This document shows positions 50,684 through 56,452 of a DNA stretch of 56,452 nucleotides, in pieces. Positions within the stretch are counted from its first letter, which is position 1. Each line of letters opens with the position of its first letter. A program made the position numbers and the translations under genes. Source of the DNA: Oscillospiraceae bacterium (GTDB taxonomy: Bacteria > Bacillota > Clostridia > Oscillospirales > CAG-272); assembly GCA_015063585.1 (NCBI GenBank), contig SVTW01000009.1, positions 1 to 56,452 of the forward strand, read 5' to 3'. The notes below the pieces were generated by a model, which was not told where the DNA came from, did no database searches, and saw nothing but the letters and a program-made list of their open reading frames with translations.

Positions 50684-53068
50684 TTACCCGATAAACAAAT
50701 TGTTTTCCCACCGACCAAACTTACAGAATCCGTGGTTGACCTTCATTCCGTAGCCGTTCATTTGACTGTTTTCAAACATACCGACGTAAAAAGAGCCGTC
50801 GGGATACAAATAGATGCCTGCTCCTTTGGCATATCCGTTTTCGTACTGTCCGATATATTTCACGCCGCTGGCATAGCACTGCACACCCGCATAATGAAAA
50901 TATCCGTTGCATAGCGGTGCAAAATAGACCGAGCCATTGAAGGTACCCATCTGCAAAGGATCGGTCATGCGCTCGGCAAGGAAGCGGTAATCGAGATTTT
51001 CAGTGTTCCCGAGCGGTTGCTTCCGTATGCCATTTTCAAACACGCCAAAGCACGCGTTACGGTTCGAATCGATCTCCATGCCGTAGCCGTTCAGATTGCG
51101 GTCGAGGAACTGCCCCGCATAAACGCGTTTGGCATCAATTGCAAAATGCAGCCCCCATCCACTGCGCCGCCCGTCCCGAAATTGCCCGACATAAACATCG
51201 CCATTGGGATACAGAGCGTATCCGAATCCGTTGGGAATGTCAAGGATAACCTCACCTGCATAAAACCAATCCTGCAGGTTCAAGCCCTTTGACTCGCGGA
51301 ACGGATAGAGCTTCGACGTTTCTTTTTCATCCAGCAGCCTTTTTTCCACCAAAACGTTCTGATCATAGACCTGCTCCTCAATCTCTCCGCCGATATAATA
51401 CAGCAGCGAACGCCCCTGCCATTTTCCCTCTACACAAGTGCCCTCCAAGCGGTTGCCGATCACGTAATAGAAGGTTCCCTTTCCGTGAAACAGACCGTTC
51501 TCGAATTCCCCCTCATAGTGGTTGCCGTTCATAAAATAAAGCGCTCCGCGTCCGGTTTTTTTGTTGTCTACGAAATCGCCCTCGTATCGGTCACCGTTGG
51601 GATAGGTGTAAACGCCTTTTCCGTGGAAGAAGCCATTTACGAAGTCACCTTCGTATCTGCTGCCGTCCGAATAGATATAAATGCCTTTTCCGTGGCATTT
51701 TCCATTCACAAACGTGCCTTCACAGCTCTCTCCACCATAATAAGTCCATTTTCCGTAGCCATTCCAGTCATCATTTTTAAATTCGCCCTCATATTCAAAG
51801 CTGTCGTACCAATAATGCCCATGCCCCTCGCACCTGTCGTTTACAAAATTGCCCTCGTAGACCTTTTTGCCGTTCACATCGTATCGAATACCGAAGCCGT
51901 GTTTTTTTCCGTTTTGGAAGTTCCCCTCATATCGCCCATAAGAGGTCTCGCGAACACCGTATCCGTCAAACTGACCGTTTTTAAATTCGCCCTCATAACG
52001 GCTGTCTGCGTCCGTGAGAATACCGGTCCCGTCATACTGACCGTTTTTAAATTCGCCCTCATAACGGCTGTTTGCGTCCGTGAGAACACCGGTCCCGTGA
52101 AATTTTCCCTTTTGAAAAGAACCCTCGTAGACGTTCCCATTGGCAAAATACAGCTTTCCGGCCCCCGTCATTTCATCATTACGGAACTCACCCACGTATC
52201 GGTCACCGTTTTTGTAGCGGTACTCACCCTTGCCGTCACGTTTTCCGTTCTTGAGGGGACCGATGTAGGTATCCCCGTTTGGAAGGACAGGGCTACTGTT
52301 GCCGGCGGCTTTGGGTGCTTCCCTTTTGGGCTCCTCACGTTGAGACACAACCGACGGTCTCAAAGACGGGCGCGCGGACACAGTCGTCTTTCTTGGCTCC
52401 GTGGAAACGGGAGTCTGTTTGGGCTCCGTGGAAACGGAAGTCCGCTTCGGCTCCGTGGATATAGTAGTCCGCTTCGGTTCTGTGAAAACGGCGCTCCCGA
52501 CATACGTTGAGGTTCCGCTCGAATACGAACTTGTAGTTTGGGGAGCAGACGCCTTTGGAGGCGGTGCCGCGGTCACGGGCGGCTTTTTTTCTTCGTCCTT
52601 GTATTGGCTCAATTCCGCGCCGTAGGTTTGCAAGCATTCGTCAACGTAACGCTGTTCAATGCTCGGATAGTCATACAAAACAGAATCCACGGTCCAATAG
52701 TGGCACAGACCGTCCAGCACACCCGTGGAGGTTTGGAGTGCCTCATACGAATGGCGGTAGTCGACCAGCTTCGACAAATGATACCGCGTGACCCTGTAAT
52801 CCGCAAAGCTGGTTCCATTCAGCTCTTCTTGATCATAGTAGCGGTTCCAATGGGACGAGATCGTCACCTTAAACAGCACGTAGCAATCGTCGGTGTCATT
52901 TACAACGAAATCGCAGGTTCTTGTGCACGTATATTCCAACGTACGCCCCTTCACTCTCGCCTCAACGTTCGGATATTCTTTTCTCAGGTTGGCGTATTCT
53001 TCAATTGCCAGGTTTCTGTTCACGTTGACGTCAAGCTGCAACTTATATTTCCCGGGCTTTAAGGACAA
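50684..53068 (-). CDS. Large MORN-repeat protein with N-terminal beta domain and Thr/Pro linker
   Basis: A 794-residue protein. Residues 1-110 are a beta-rich domain (PGKYKLQLDVNVNR, LEYTCTRTCDFVVNDTDDCYVLFKVTI); 110-160 are helical. About 165-260 is a disordered linker containing four 9-residue repeats (TEPKRTTIS and variants). From 265 to the end are about 20 MORN repeats (YEGEFKNGQxDGTG type), interrupted near 600-640. MORN arrays in bacteria bind lipids or scaffold proteins; no catalytic domain is seen. The start is a TTG seven bases after the stop of the gene before, with no Shine-Dalgarno, so translational coupling is likely. An in-frame stop upstream and no early ATG leave no better start. 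Confidence 0.85.
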   Translation of the reverse strand: MSLKPGKYKLQLDVNVNRNLAIEEYANLRKEYPNVEARVKGRTLEYTCTRTCDFVVNDTDDCYVLFKVTISSHWNRYYDQEELNGTSFADYRVTRYHLSKLVDYRHSYEALQTSTGVLDGLCHYWTVDSVLYDYPSIEQRYVDECLQTYGAELSQYKDEEKKPPVTAAPPPKASAPQTTSSYSSGTSTYVGSAVFTEPKRTTISTEPKRTSVSTEPKQTPVSTEPRKTTVSARPSLRPSVVSQREEPKREAPKAAGNSSPVLPNGDTYIGPLKNGKRDGKGEYRYKNGDRYVGEFRNDEMTGAGKLYFANGNVYEGSFQKGKFHGTGVLTDANSRYEGEFKNGQYDGTGILTDADSRYEGEFKNGQFDGYGVRETSYGRYEGNFQNGKKHGFGIRYDVNGKKVYEGNFVNDRCEGHGHYWYDSFEYEGEFKNDDWNGYGKWTYYGGESCEGTFVNGKCHGKGIYIYSDGSRYEGDFVNGFFHGKGVYTYPNGDRYEGDFVDNKKTGRGALYFMNGNHYEGEFENGLFHGKGTFYYVIGNRLEGTCVEGKWQGRSLLYYIGGEIEEQVYDQNVLVEKRLLDEKETSKLYPFRESKGLNLQDWFYAGEVILDIPNGFGYALYPNGDVYVGQFRDGRRSGWGLHFAIDAKRVYAGQFLDRNLNGYGMEIDSNRNACFGVFENGIRKQPLGNTENLDYRFLAERMTDPLQMGTFNGSVYFAPLCNGYFHYAGVQCYASGVKYIGQYENGYAKGAGIYLYPDGSFYVGMFENSQMNGYGMKVNHGFCKFGRWENNLFIG
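51971..52102 (-). repeat. Recent 66-bp tandem duplication inside the MORN array
   Basis: Units 51971-52036 and 52037-52102 match at 62 of 66 bases, whereas other MORN repeats in the gene differ widely. The array has expanded recently by one 22-residue repeat. Confidence 0.85.
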
Positions 53069-53075
53069 TGAGAGC

Positions 53076-53324
53076 TTATCGCTGAAAGATCTTCACCCTC
53101 TGACCGTTGATGTAGATCGCCCCGAAGGAAACCGTGCCGTCGTAAGAACTGAATGGCATGTATTTGCTGTCATTGATACCTGCCAAGGGGATCAGATGAA
53201 AATTGTATTTTTGGTCTTTTCTTCTCAACCGATCAATATAGGCAAGCGCAATATTTTTTTCATGCTCGGCTTTTTGCATGATCCTCTGATATTCTGCTTC
53301 CTGTTTCTTTTTTGAACCAAACAT
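53076..53324 (-). CDS. Small protein coupled to the MORN gene
   Basis: An 82-residue protein of unknown function: a basic, Lys/Gln-rich N-terminal helix (MFGSKKKQEAEYQRIMQKAEHEKNIALAYIDRLRRK) that may be a coiled coil, then a short beta-rich part (YNFHLIPLAGINDSKYMPFSSYDGTVSFGAIYINGQRVKIF). GGGAG before the ATG at 53324 decides the start over an upstream GTG. It ends seven bases before the MORN start and probably makes a partner or assembly factor for it. No similar protein recognised. Confidence 0.7.
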   Translation of the reverse strand: MFGSKKKQEAEYQRIMQKAEHEKNIALAYIDRLRRKDQKYNFHLIPLAGINDSKYMPFSSYDGTVSFGAIYINGQRVKIFQR

Positions 53325-53399
53325 TCTGTTCTCCCTCACAATTCAGTTAATCATTCTGTAAATACGAACCTGCTGTAACATAAACTTTCGAGTTTTGTC

Positions 53400-53416
53400 A
53401 AACTCACATTTGTCCC
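53400..53416. repeat. 17-bp direct repeat shared by two accessory segments (copy 1)
   Basis: Identical to 55171-55187; on the coding strand it reads GGGACAAATGTGAGTTT and both copies are followed about 22 bases later by TTACAGCAG. Each lies about 100 bp before a leftward accessory gene, downstream of an RlmD-tail copy. Confidence 0.75.
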
Positions 53417-53458
53417 TACTGAAAAAATTGAATCATTTTTTGATTTAAGCATCTATTT

Positions 53459-53536
53459 TTGTAGGGATCGGCGTCCTCGACGGGCTACAATAACGGCTTG
53501 TATTTTTTGGACCGTCCGGGAGGCCGGTCCCTACAA
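53459..53536. repeat. 78-bp palindromic intergenic element
   Basis: Ends in inverted copies of TTGTAGGGA (53459-53467 and 53528-53536), with a second arm pair GGACCGTCC/GGCCGGTCC-like sequence near the right end. Resembles short TIR-bounded (MITE- or REP-like) elements of Clostridia. The surrounding 53340-53456 is AT-rich without genes. Confidence 0.6.
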
Positions 53537-53556
53537 ATTATTGCGATTTTCGCGTC

Positions 53557-53626
53557 AGACAAAGGACACTCTCAACGTGGGTCAAGACGACAAAAGGTAT
53601 AAAAATCGGCTAAAAATGGGGGTTGT
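53557..53626 (-). repeat. RlmD C-terminal-tail copy A with preceding 37-bp sequence (candidate attachment site)
   Basis: Matches 54111-54180 at 66 of 70 bases. Read leftward it holds the shared sequence ACAACCCCCATTTTTAGCC..., then codons LTHVESVLCLTRKSQ and a TAA, the last codons lying just past this span. HVESV[V/L]CLTR is the C-terminus of the rlmD product at 55384. An in-frame stop upstream means it is only a tail, not a gene. Confidence 0.85.
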
Positions 53627-53640
53627 GAAAGCAAAAAGTC

Positions 53641-54093
53641 TCACTTTTCAATCTCTCCCGACCAAAAGGTACGCAGAAAAGTAAGATTATTCTTGTTCTT
53701 TCGAAAACAAATATAACTGTCTTTCCTAAAGCGATCAAATTTATGTATGCTACTATCTACCAAATATATAAAATTGCCCTCACGCCAAGCATGCTGAATC
53801 TTTACTTTTCCAATGGATTCAATAGGACATTCTTTATAAAAGCCGCATATCAATCCCTTGCGTTTCACAACATCATCTTCGATCCAAACCACGCATGCTG
53901 ATCTATTCAAAAACCATAAGAAAAAGCAGGAAAGAAAAAGAAACACACAAAAGTCCAAATATCCCGCTCCCTTTTCCTCAACAAAGCCGAACATCTCAAA
54001 CCCGATAGCAATAATCGAAAATGCGAAAAAAAGAATACACCAAAAGGATAGTATTATTAAAGCAAGCAAACTTGAAGAAATAATTCTTTTCAT
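53641..54093 (-). CDS. Small membrane protein of unknown function in rlmD-end segment 2
   Basis: A 150-residue protein with two N-terminal membrane helices (SSLLALIILSFWCILFFAFSIIAIG and YLDFCVFLFLSCFFLWFLNR) and a soluble C-terminal part of beta strands (ACVVWIEDDVVKRKGLICGFYKECPIESIGKVKI), reminiscent of bacterial PH-like domains. AT-rich codon use differs from the main chromosome. AAGGAGGTGA precedes the ATG at 54093; those bases are also the TRR-stop codons of RlmD-tail copy B. The gene is flanked on both sides by tail copies, so it forms a one-gene cassette. Confidence 0.75.
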   Translation of the reverse strand: MKRIISSSLLALIILSFWCILFFAFSIIAIGFEMFGFVEEKGAGYLDFCVFLFLSCFFLWFLNRSACVVWIEDDVVKRKGLICGFYKECPIESIGKVKIQHAWREGNFIYLVDSSIHKFDRFRKDSYICFRKNKNNLTFLRTFWSGEIEK

Positions 54094-54106
54094 TGTGTCA
54101 CCTCCT

Positions 54107-54180
54107 TGTGAGACAAACGACACTCTCGACGTGGGTCAAGATTACAAAAGGTATAAAAATCGGCTAAAAATGGGGGTTGT
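54107..54180 (-). repeat. RlmD C-terminal-tail copy B with preceding 37-bp sequence (candidate attachment site)
   Basis: Read leftward: the same 37-bp sequence as copy A, then codons LTHVESVVCLTRR and TGA. The 27 bases 54107-54133 match the true rlmD end (55402-55428) at 24 positions. The AGG-AGG-TGA codons double as the Shine-Dalgarno of the next gene. Confidence 0.87.
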
Positions 54181-54222
54181 AAAGCCAAAAGGTATATTTT
54201 TAAAGAATATTCTATACACAGT

Positions 54223-55104
54223 TCAACTCATATCATACGTTGTAAAACCAAACGATTCTATTTGCTTTTGTAAATCGTGAAAACGTTGAACGGTATTTCT
54301 CTTTGAGAAAAACTCCTTAATTTTGCTATTTGGCAAGAAGACTATATGAGTGGTTTTAGGTGCTGTGTAAAATCCAAACGACGGGTTCGTTCCTGTTATG
54401 TCTCGTTCCGCCACACAAGTACCTTTACCACCATGAACTTGTTGAAAGTTGTAGGCACATTCCCTGAAATTAATGAATTTCATATTCTTTAGCGATATGC
54501 CGTTTGGAGAAATGCCTGCAATCTCATTTTCGGTATAAGAATCGTAATCATCAAATGCAACTGTTGGTGTTTGAGGAATGCAATCACCTAAATCGGTGGC
54601 TTTGTCTGTGAGACTATACCATTCGTTACAAAAGGCAGAAAAACCGTCTTGGTCAAATTGGTCTTCAAATTGTCTTGGCGGATTTTGATGATAAAAATCT
54701 TCTATCTGCTTTGCATAAGAGAGAACGGACGCTTTATAATCTTCAAAGGTTACTGCATATGTAGTGCCGTCCTGTGTGCGAATGATAATATTGTTATCTT
54801 CATGTATGATGTCAAAATCTATTCCATTTGGACAACCGCTGATGGTCACACTCGTTTTATCTTGTGATGGAATTAAAAAGTGTCCGCAACAAGGAATCAT
54901 TTGTTCTTCAGCACCAAGAAAATGATTTTCAAATAACGAGCGTAAAAAGCGATATGCAGAAGCACTTACACACCAATCCGAATCGTCGTTTGACAGATTG
55001 CAACCATCAATTTTGAAAATCACTTTTCCGTGTACGCAATAGTCATAAACCTGATCTTTTTGTGTGTCGCCTAAAAAATGCAAATCTGTTGCATATAGCT
55101 CCAT
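54223..55104 (-). CDS. Unknown accessory protein in rlmD-end segment 1
   Basis: A 293-residue soluble protein with no family I can name. It starts with a beta-rich half (GKVIFKIDGCNLSNDDSDWCVSASAYRFLRSLFENHF, VTISGCPNGIDFDIIHEDNNIIIRTQDGTTYAVTFEDYKASVLSYAKQIEDFY), then an acidic stretch (FDQDGFSAFCNEWYSL) and a Cys-containing C-terminal half. The first 130 residues look like a small stand-alone protein domain of the kind seen in immunity or accessory genes, but that is only an impression. GAAAGGAAGTG precedes the ATG. AT-rich composition and bracketing by RlmD tails mark it as acquired. Confidence 0.7.
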   Translation of the reverse strand: MELYATDLHFLGDTQKDQVYDYCVHGKVIFKIDGCNLSNDDSDWCVSASAYRFLRSLFENHFLGAEEQMIPCCGHFLIPSQDKTSVTISGCPNGIDFDIIHEDNNIIIRTQDGTTYAVTFEDYKASVLSYAKQIEDFYHQNPPRQFEDQFDQDGFSAFCNEWYSLTDKATDLGDCIPQTPTVAFDDYDSYTENEIAGISPNGISLKNMKFINFRECAYNFQQVHGGKGTCVAERDITGTNPSFGFYTAPKTTHIVFLPNSKIKEFFSKRNTVQRFHDLQKQIESFGFTTYDMS

Positions 55105-55170
55105 TTGATCACTTCCTTTCTCGATATGTTATATTAAACTGCTGTAAAACGAATTTTTGAATTGCGCTCG

Positions 55171-55187
55171 AAACTCACATTTGTCCC
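55171..55187. repeat. 17-bp direct repeat shared by two accessory segments (copy 2)
   Basis: Exact match to 53400-53416; see that entry. Precedes the 293-residue gene by about 70 bp. Confidence 0.75.
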
Positions 55188-55195
55188 AACGAATT

Positions 55196-55369
55196 AGTGA
55201 AGTTTTTGCTTCGCAAAAGTGAAGTTGTTCGTTACGCTCACAGTGAAGTTTTGCTCGTTCCACTCGCAAAGTGAAGTTAAGTTCGCCCTAAACTACTATT
55301 CACTTGCGCCGTAAGCGGCGCAAACTTCACTTTGGCGATAGTCAAAACTTCACTGCTTGCAACTTCACT
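55196..55369. repeat. Array of seven AGTGAAGTT units, four direct and three inverted, with palindromic spacers
   Basis: AGTGAAGTT starts at 55196, 55218, 55242 and 55270; the inverse AACTTCACT at 55323, 55346 and 55361. Spacers are often small palindromes, such as TTTTGCTTCGCAAA and TTGCGCCGTAAGCGGCGCAA. The whole can fold as one large cruciform or hairpin directly after the rlmD stop. Confidence 0.85.
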
Positions 55370-55383
55370 CGCCGTAGGCGAAC

Positions 55384-56452
55384 TTAGTTGTCGAGTCGTC
55401 GTGTGAGACACACGACAGACTCGACGTGCCCCGTCCTCGGGAACATATCGACAGGCGTCACCTCGCCAATTTCATATCCCAGCTCCTTGAAGATCCCGCA
55501 GTCACGTGCCAACGTGTCGGGATTGCAGGAAACGTATACCACGCGGCAAAAATCACGCTTGGAGATGTATTCGATCAACGCCCTTGTGCTTCCCTTTCGG
55601 GGCGGGTCAAATATAACGGTCGTGTTTTTCGAATCCAGCGCGCCATGCATACGCTCGGCATTTTCCAACAGCTTTTCAGCATCCGATGCGTCTCCGCAGT
55701 AAAACGAGGCATGTGCGATCGCATTCCGCTCGGCGTTCTCCGCGGCGCGCTTCACCGCCTCCTCCACGATCTCGATCCCGATCACTTCCTTTGCGCGATC
55801 CGCCATCGAAAGTCCGATCGTGCCGATCCCGCAATACAGATCCAAAAGTGTTTCCTGCCCCGTGAGGGCAGCTTTCTCCTTCGCAATGCCGTACAAAAGC
55901 TCGCAGGCATCGTGATTGACCTGATAAAACGCGCCAGCCGAGATTCGGAAACGCAAACCGCACAGCACGTCCTCGATATAGTCACGTCCGCCAAGCAACC
56001 GATCGGTATCCCCCAGCACGACGTTTGTATTTTCGCGGTTGCAATTGAGCATCACGCTCACCACCGTGGGGTAGCGCGCCATCACCGATTCGGCAAGCTC
56101 GCGCTCGTGGGGCAGGCGATCCCCGTTGACCACAAGGCAGAGCATGATCTCGCCCGTCGATTGTCCGCATCGCAGATAGATATGACGGAGCAATCCGTCC
56201 CCACGCTCTTCCTCGTAAGCCGAGATCCCGTAACGGTTACAAAAATCACACACGAATCGCGTCAATTCGGCAAACACGGGCGGTTGCAGATTGCAGGCGT
56301 CGGCAGGCACGATGCGATGTGTTCCCGTGGCAAAAAAACCGACCTCCATGCCGTTCTTTCCGCGTCTGACGGGATACTGCGCCTTGTTGCGGTAGGCATT
56401 CAACTGCCCCGTATGGCGGACCGACTCCACAGCCACGTCAGCAAGCCCTGCC
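55384..56452 (-). CDS. rlmD: 23S rRNA (uracil-5-)-methyltransferase RlmD/RumA-type, C-terminal part (start outside window)
   Basis: SAM-dependent methyltransferase making 5-methyluridine in 23S rRNA. The visible 355 residues are the TrmA/RumA catalytic part; the frame is still open at the window edge, so the N-terminal TRAM domain and start lie beyond. Motifs: YRNKAQYPV, ISAGAFYQVN, the SAM loop LLDLYCGIGTIGLSMA, VIFDPPRKGS and the catalytic-Cys motif VSCNPDTLARD, ending VDMFPRTGHVESVVCLTRRLDN. RlmD versus RlmCD cannot be decided. Its 3' end appears to be a target for accessory DNA, leaving tail copies at 54.1 and 53.6 kb. Confidence 0.93.
   Translation of the reverse strand, partial: AGLADVAVESVRHTGQLNAYRNKAQYPVRRGKNGMEVGFFATGTHRIVPADACNLQPPVFAELTRFVCDFCNRYGISAYEEERGDGLLRHIYLRCGQSTGEIMLCLVVNGDRLPHERELAESVMARYPTVVSVMLNCNRENTNVVLGDTDRLLGGRDYIEDVLCGLRFRISAGAFYQVNHDACELLYGIAKEKAALTGQETLLDLYCGIGTIGLSMADRAKEVIGIEIVEEAVKRAAENAERNAIAHASFYCGDASDAEKLLENAERMHGALDSKNTTVIFDPPRKGSTRALIEYISKRDFCRVVYVSCNPDTLARDCGIFKELGYEIGEVTPVDMFPRTGHVESVVCLTRRLDN
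55402..55428 (-). other. Candidate integration core in the rlmD 3' end
   Basis: These 27 coding bases (HVESVVCLT) recur with three changes at 54107-54133 and more loosely at 53553-53579. Duplication of a gene's 3' end with restored stop codons is typical of site-specific integration. Confidence 0.7.

Follow-up and report, generated by a model that had tools for sequence, protein, structure and literature searches.

Integrons are the textbook route by which bacteria collect and shuffle single genes. In the staphylococcal cassette chromosome (SCC), the end of an rRNA methyltransferase gene serves as anchor, elements stack serially behind it and recombinase-free elements are moved in trans. Integrative and conjugative or mobilizable elements (ICEs and IMEs) which target rumA are described as swapping the 3' parts of rumA and of the integrase gene upon insertion (PMC4701971). 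For the Enterococcus cassette chromosome, large serine recombinases are described that insert variable cargo in SCC fashion (PMC6222049). Here we analyzed a 56,452-bp stretch of DNA from an Oscillospiraceae bacterium (contig SVTW01000009.1, positions 1 to 56,452; the window hereafter), in which the 3' end of rlmD, a gene for a 23S rRNA uracil-5-methyltransferase, is followed by two small cassettes, each closed by a copy of the sequence for the RlmD tail. The locus is likely to be the start of a cassette array built by serial site-specific insertion at the rlmD end. The rlmD arrays are integron-like in working and SCC- and rumA-like in position, and they fail defining tests of each; we rate them as a new kind of cassette array. 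A description of one-gene cassettes at rlmD was not found among the top-ranked titles and abstract beginnings from the open-licence PubMed Central literature, which is not proof of absence.

All features of the locus are on the minus strand of the window. The anchor gene rlmD (55384..56451) was identified by its open reading frame (ORF) and by Pfam PF05958 (E = 1.1e-22). Its 5' end lies beyond the contig end; it stops at 55384 with the C-terminus HVESVVCLTRRLDN. The putative landing site is a 26-bp core at the rlmD end (55403..55428) which encodes HVESVVCLT. Two extra copies of the tail were found downstream: copy B encodes THVESVVCLTRR followed by a stop (54098-54136), copy A encodes THVESVLCLTRKSQ followed by a stop (53538-53582). 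Each overlaps an 88-bp attachment (att) unit composed of a 62-bp non-coding precore and a 26-bp core, i.e. unit B at 54108..54195 (precore 54134-54195, core 54108-54133) and unit A at 53554..53641 (precore 53580-53641, core 53554-53579). The precore has no codon-type period and holds two direct repeats, roughly AAATATACCTTTTGG-cTTtacaACCCCC and ATACCTTTTGG-tcTTgACCC. Copies A and B have 86 bp in common at 90% identity (53554-53639 and 54108-54193); with copy A as a query, copy B was retrieved at E 2.9e-28, and the 86-bp unit occurs at these two places only in the genome of the window (E ≤ 1; genome 86.5% complete). Compared with the true rlmD end over a 27-bp core part, copy B is 89% and copy A 85% identical.

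Cassette 1 (54108..55402; 1,295 bp) consists of a leader, one gene and att unit B. The leader carries a promoter-like module, TTACAGCAGTTTAATATAACATATCGA (55121..55147), which has a single match in the genome of the window at up to two mismatches. The gene (54223..55104) encodes a protein of 293 aa of unknown family. Cassette 2 (53554..54107; 554 bp) has a ribosome-binding-like sequence, AAGGAGGTGACACAATG, immediately 3' of the core, followed by a gene for 150 aa (53641..54093), a probable membrane protein judging by hydrophobic stretches seen by eye. Its stop codon is at the edge of att unit A. Each segment contains one main gene on the rlmD strand, and the GC contents are 0.39 and 0.36. Hence the original prediction, which was made from the letters of the window, was correct in the repetition of the RlmD tail, in core-to-core segments of about 1.3 and 0.55 kb, in one main gene per AT-rich segment and in the absence of a recombinase from the array of the window. 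It was amended in two points. The 37-bp sequence shared by the copies is part of the longer non-coding precore with its internal direct repeat. The extra copies do resemble the rlmD tail, but they are better read as cassette junctions, and the tail at rlmD was probably brought by the incoming cassette.

The original prediction had suggested a search of related genomes for the unit behind rlmD. We used a sequence-only att model built from 35 units. At a cut-off of E ≤ 0.001 it matched in 109 of 395 genomes of the family and in 27 of 71 genera; some of the weak matches may be bare rlmD ends (in G003 no internal unit was seen). In a draw of 345 genomes from the order 14 matched at E ≤ 1e-5, 7 of these in four other families. 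With few exceptions, the 80 named relatives of the rlmD of the window were assemblies of uncultured Clostridia, Oscillospiraceae or Ruminococcus, and many of the assembly titles refer to animal gut samples. The att patterns and the promoter module had no match in viral contigs (exact pattern), nor had one att unit as a query in plasmid and phage records.

The comparison covered 123 pieces: the window, 118 from the surroundings of rlmD or of units, and four recombinase loci (L253 and L256, which duplicate longer pieces, were left out). In 107 of the pieces 203 units were present, a number that includes some rlmD ends, and strands were never mixed. Without the ends of rlmD and of recombinase genes, 162 internal units in 99 loci remained. 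Of these loci, 59 are located behind rlmD with the first unit 203-3,913 bp from the gene, and 4 follow a serine recombinase gene that belongs to an rlmD-targeting element; the other 36 are limited by a contig end which is at most 2.1 kb away on the anchor side. Occurrence of the unit away from rlmD had been named beforehand as counterevidence; the 63 of 99 loci with visible context have rlmD or an rlmD-targeting element upstream.

In a first set of 103 intervals (287-7,352 bp, median 860) the longest ORF had the sense of rlmD in 101, and in a larger set (median 872 bp) it had this sense in 119 of 121. The larger set was restricted to intervals 150-4,000 bp long that close with a precore-bearing unit and contain a 50-aa ORF. 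The GC content of the cassettes was 0.38 in the larger set, versus 0.52 for rlmD in the first. The stop codon was located 75-100 bp before the cassette end, at the precore edge, in 66 of 119 cassettes, and 40-74 bp before it in 18 more. At the other side, 41 ORFs began at most 40 bp from the core, and for 36 a permissive pattern detected a ribosome-binding-like sequence. A promoter-like module around TTACAGCAGTnnnnTATAACATATCGA was shared by 38 of the 74 longer leaders. In three genomes searched for it (G000, G108, G174) all 7 matches were within the rlmD array.

The cargo, surveyed with 85 cluster representatives, consists largely of unknown genes. Among the Pfam matches listed (25 of 65 families) were restriction enzymes, a methyltransferase, GIY-YIG and HNH nucleases, a GDSL esterase, a glycerate kinase and glycosidases; the defence-model matches among those listed (25 of 81) were to restriction, methylase and methylase-like models. 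Some cassettes are multi-gene. Two of these (L235:6109-9462 and L252:6490-9832) carry a regulator, a C5 methyltransferase and a restriction endonuclease gene. Separately, an ORF cluster was seen in 17 array loci (L069:15106-15684, L449:450-851 and others), the representative of which is a 23S rRNA intervening-sequence protein (PF05635). It is often found behind hairpin-rich leaders, and some members probably are only translated leader repeats.

As in integrons, cassettes that mostly hold one gene are stacked in the same orientation behind a fixed site, each gene has a recombination site at its 3' end, cassettes are shared and reordered, and many genes are unknown. In contrast to integrons, neither an integron integrase in general nor an adjacent integron-type tyrosine integrase was found with the rlmD arrays, and an attC-like hairpin gave no signal in 8 folds of both strands of 4 units (z -1.5 to 0.9). 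Further, the rlmD arrays are anchored at rlmD, their site is partly protein-coding and replaces the tail of the anchor gene, and about half of the longer leaders share the promoter-like module. With SCC the arrays have in common an rRNA methyltransferase gene end as anchor, serial stacking and elements that lack a recombinase and would be moved in trans. However, SCC is inserted at the 3' end of rlmH and not of rlmD, and the cassettes here measure 0.3-7.4 kb (median below 0.9 kb), mostly with one gene. No serine recombinase, of the ccr kind or another, was found within the cassettes. The recombinase of the rlmD-targeting element scored 204 bits against CcrB (cut-off 900) and is below the Ccr cut-offs. 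The Enterococcus cassette chromosome would be similar in having variable cargo inserted by large serine recombinases; it differs in being made up of islands with conserved ccrAB and not of one-gene arrays.

Does the insertion affect RlmD? From 187 rlmD matches we removed 3 that fell short of the end, 1 without the motif and 23 duplicates, leaving 160 ends. Of 61 ends that have a unit at most 5 kb away, 50 bear the tail VES[VLI][VIM]CL, versus 4 of 60 ends without a unit (at least 3 kb seen). The remaining 39 ends had too little flanking sequence; 10 of them bear the array-type tail. Because many of the 60 unit-free ends came from other families, we recounted within one common genome set. The array-type tail was then found in 49 of 60 versus 3 of 18 ends (p = 8e-7), at mean RlmD identities to the window that were similar (54% and 56%). 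Downstream of the His codon, the next 24 bp were 75% alike among array-bearing ends versus 53% among the remaining ones. Immediately ahead of it, 27 bp were 71% and 74% alike, respectively, and the 60 bp further upstream 52% and 54%. By the tail counts, insertion goes along with an exchange of the 3' part of rlmD, as in the rumA/rlmD ICEs and IMEs. The internal cores retain the signature of a coding sequence: 98 distinct cores had 218 synonymous versus 88 nonsynonymous codon changes (random single changes, 17:55). Although they are detached from rlmD, most of their variation still falls on third positions of rlmD-frame codons. The simplest account of these sequences is that most internal cores would once have been working rlmD tails, displaced by the next insertion. 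As a side observation, four loci (L225, L246, L247 and L443) contain two RlmD paralogues each; in L225 both have array-type tails.

Cassette genes are common to different genera with up to 100% protein identity and in changing order. The 119 cassette genes formed 66 families, 30 of which were present in at least two loci, and 29 of 87 cross-locus gene pairs had at least 90% identity. The cassette protein was closer than the host RlmD in 54 of 63 pairs with both RlmDs known, the pairs being non-independent. For example, one cassette protein was 100% identical over 92 aa at 57% identity of the host RlmDs, another 96% over 228 aa at 37%. The genes of the window fit in: the 293-aa gene is the same cassette gene in G023 (94%) and G012 (85%), and the 150-aa gene has a 91% identical counterpart in G032. 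Conserved gene order was the other outcome named beforehand as speaking against insertion. The order varies; 50 adjacent cassette pairs gave 49 distinct combinations, with one combination in two loci. The original prediction that small cassettes were inserted serially at the 3' end of rlmD is strongly supported.

By comparison of the loci, a cassette consists of a core, probably destined to be the new rlmD tail, an optional leader, often with the promoter-like module, a gene and the 62-bp precore. We propose that it recombines as a circle at the rlmD end within the His-Val-Glu codons (CAYGTnGA) or slightly further into the core. The incoming core would from then on encode the RlmD tail, and the former tail, now displaced, would become the junction ahead of the next cassette. 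In this manner cassettes would stack behind rlmD, newest first. Expression may come from the promoter module of the cassette or from read-through from upstream. On balance, we favor an independent, non-integron gene-capture system of gut Clostridia. In this system single genes, many with a shared promoter module, would circulate between genera by means of a partly protein-coding site and dock at the rlmD end via a recombinase provided in trans, of the serine type or of an as yet unrecognised one. With every insertion, about the last ten residues of RlmD would be rewritten.

Which enzyme could do this? A serine recombinase with Resolvase, Recombinase and zinc-ribbon domains was found in 12 of the 395 genomes, at 13 places. 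At 12 of these the end of the recombinase gene itself encodes an RlmD-type tail (at one loosely) and forms the junction, which is not so in the cassettes. Att units follow the gene at 5 places (one unit partial). rlmD was found in 11 of these genomes, and in 6 of the 11 its tail is VETVCLLSKL..QxHIE or very similar to this. In G112 an rlmD with a VETVCLLSKL-type tail and the recombinase are 13.5 kb apart on one contig with a MobV-type relaxase in between. Because of this arrangement we take this tail as the probable other end of the element. The elements in the 12 genomes belong to the known class of rumA-targeting ICEs and IMEs. These use the same gene end as the cassettes; they are, however, autonomous and larger, with relaxase and integrase as in G112, whereas the cassettes are devoid of both and the precore replaces the end of the integrase gene. 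Because the cassettes use nearly the same codons, the large serine recombinases of such elements, acting in trans, are our leading candidate for the catalyst, to which we would accord not quite an even chance. The movement of cassettes in trans, already considered in the original prediction, is plausible. At the apparent entry point of a serine-integrase element, the RlmD of six loci (L393, L394, L395, L402, L406 and L408) has a long C-terminal extension; 103-118 residues are listed beyond the cut.

Several observations do not sit well with the proposed scheme. The serine recombinase is rare, and 5 of its 12 genomes have arrays versus 3.3 expected. A Resolvase-domain match was absent from 5 of 14 array-bearing genomes checked and present in all 7 array-less ones; serine recombinases in general were rejected as the mover on these grounds. 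The precore has no similarity to the DNA before the end of the serine recombinase gene, and, in profile searches and among the Pfam matches listed (25 of 65), the arrays contained no recombinase besides the serine recombinase at the head of some. Among rlmD ends, 11 of the 61 with a unit have a different tail, and 4 of the 60 unit-free ends have the array-type tail. A single fixed crossover does not predict that near-identical cassettes can bear att units differing in several places, as was observed. Finally, the array genomes inspected are all draft assemblies, in many of which a contig breaks off at the array, and the sites compared come from different strains.

Possibly a dedicated recombinase, of the host Xer type or from another element, has gone unrecognised and moves the cassettes, while the serine-integrase elements at rlmD merely share the landing site. 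We consider this conceivable, yet somewhat improbable. The rarity of the serine integrase and the dissimilar precore would agree with it, as would the weak palindromic symmetry of the modelled cassette circle, centred just before GTnGA. A Xer-like protein of about 340 aa was the only tyrosine recombinase common to all 8 array-bearing genomes tested. This says little because Xer-type enzymes are expected in nearly all bacteria, and a dif-like site was not seen in the att unit when compared by eye with the dif consensus. A common tyrosine recombinase of 280 aa from several array genomes was rejected for lack of association (32 shared genomes, 30.1 expected). No tyrosine recombinase was detected within arrays; G325 has one near an array, which within the comparison set is closest to integrases of the phage type.

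Alternatively, RecA-type homologous recombination between the 88-bp repeats, after DNA uptake or conjugation, might shuffle the cassettes, and a site-specific step, if any, would be ancestral. The differing att units of near-identical cassettes look mosaic, one leader pair looks recombined and att units are mostly 72-92% alike, all of which would be expected from such exchange. But every locus seen has a single orientation and a single anchor, and rlmD shares only about 26 bp with the unit, a length of identity that is short for RecA. As the sole explanation this is unlikely. In addition to site-specific insertion, later homologous exchange between att units is likely because near-identical cassettes can bear differing units. 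One-ended or rolling-circle transposition beside the rlmD tail (IS91- or IS200-like) could account for the conserved 3' end and variable 5' start of each cassette. Insertion at one coding site with tail replacement does not fit this, and no such transposase was among the matches listed (25 of 65 cassette-gene Pfam families; a genome-wide search was not made), making it highly improbable. A vertically inherited locus in which the rlmD end was duplicated in tandem and genes were gained afterwards would explain that tails resemble the local rlmD tail, but this can practically be dismissed in view of the shuffled order, of near-identical genes across genera and of a tail common to RlmDs which are only 33-50% alike.

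If the proposed gene-capture system is real, it constitutes a second, unrelated solution to what integrons achieve, in Clostridia of animal guts, and makes visible a pool of mostly unknown genes, restriction systems included, that moves between genera. Testable now are the moving enzyme, entry at the first position with expression via the shared promoter, and the effect of the RlmD tail change.

Some minor observations concern the window and the junctions. The predicted structure of the 293-aa protein is poor (mean predicted local distance difference test score, 41), and sequence comparison yielded no close solved structure. Partial relatives exist in Leptospira and Adhaeribacter plasmids, none were found in phages. 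Next to cassette 2, the region 50684..53553 (minus strand) is a possible third, eroded cassette, with a leader and a MORN-repeat gene split in two frames. Its leader stretch 53362-53419 partly resembles the leader of cassette 1; the far end of the region showed no att unit. Together, the gene start MRENRMFGSKKK and the MORN-repeat ORF (53068-53339) look like one gene with a frameshift or an assembly error. An interspersed repeat of about 34 bp, distinct from the att unit, is located at 53503-53536 and at 15 other places of the genome, and several cassette leaders begin with a similar sequence (GTAGGGGC...). Lastly, the rlmD-end core and the first bases of cassette 1 form an imperfect inverted repeat, as noticed by eye. 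At other junctions, core and first cassette bases form long inverted repeats of co-varying sequence (L237:278, L414:156, L242:8021 and others; rlmD-sense coordinates). Stems of at least 12 bp were present at 12 of 224 junctions versus 0.4 with shuffled partners.

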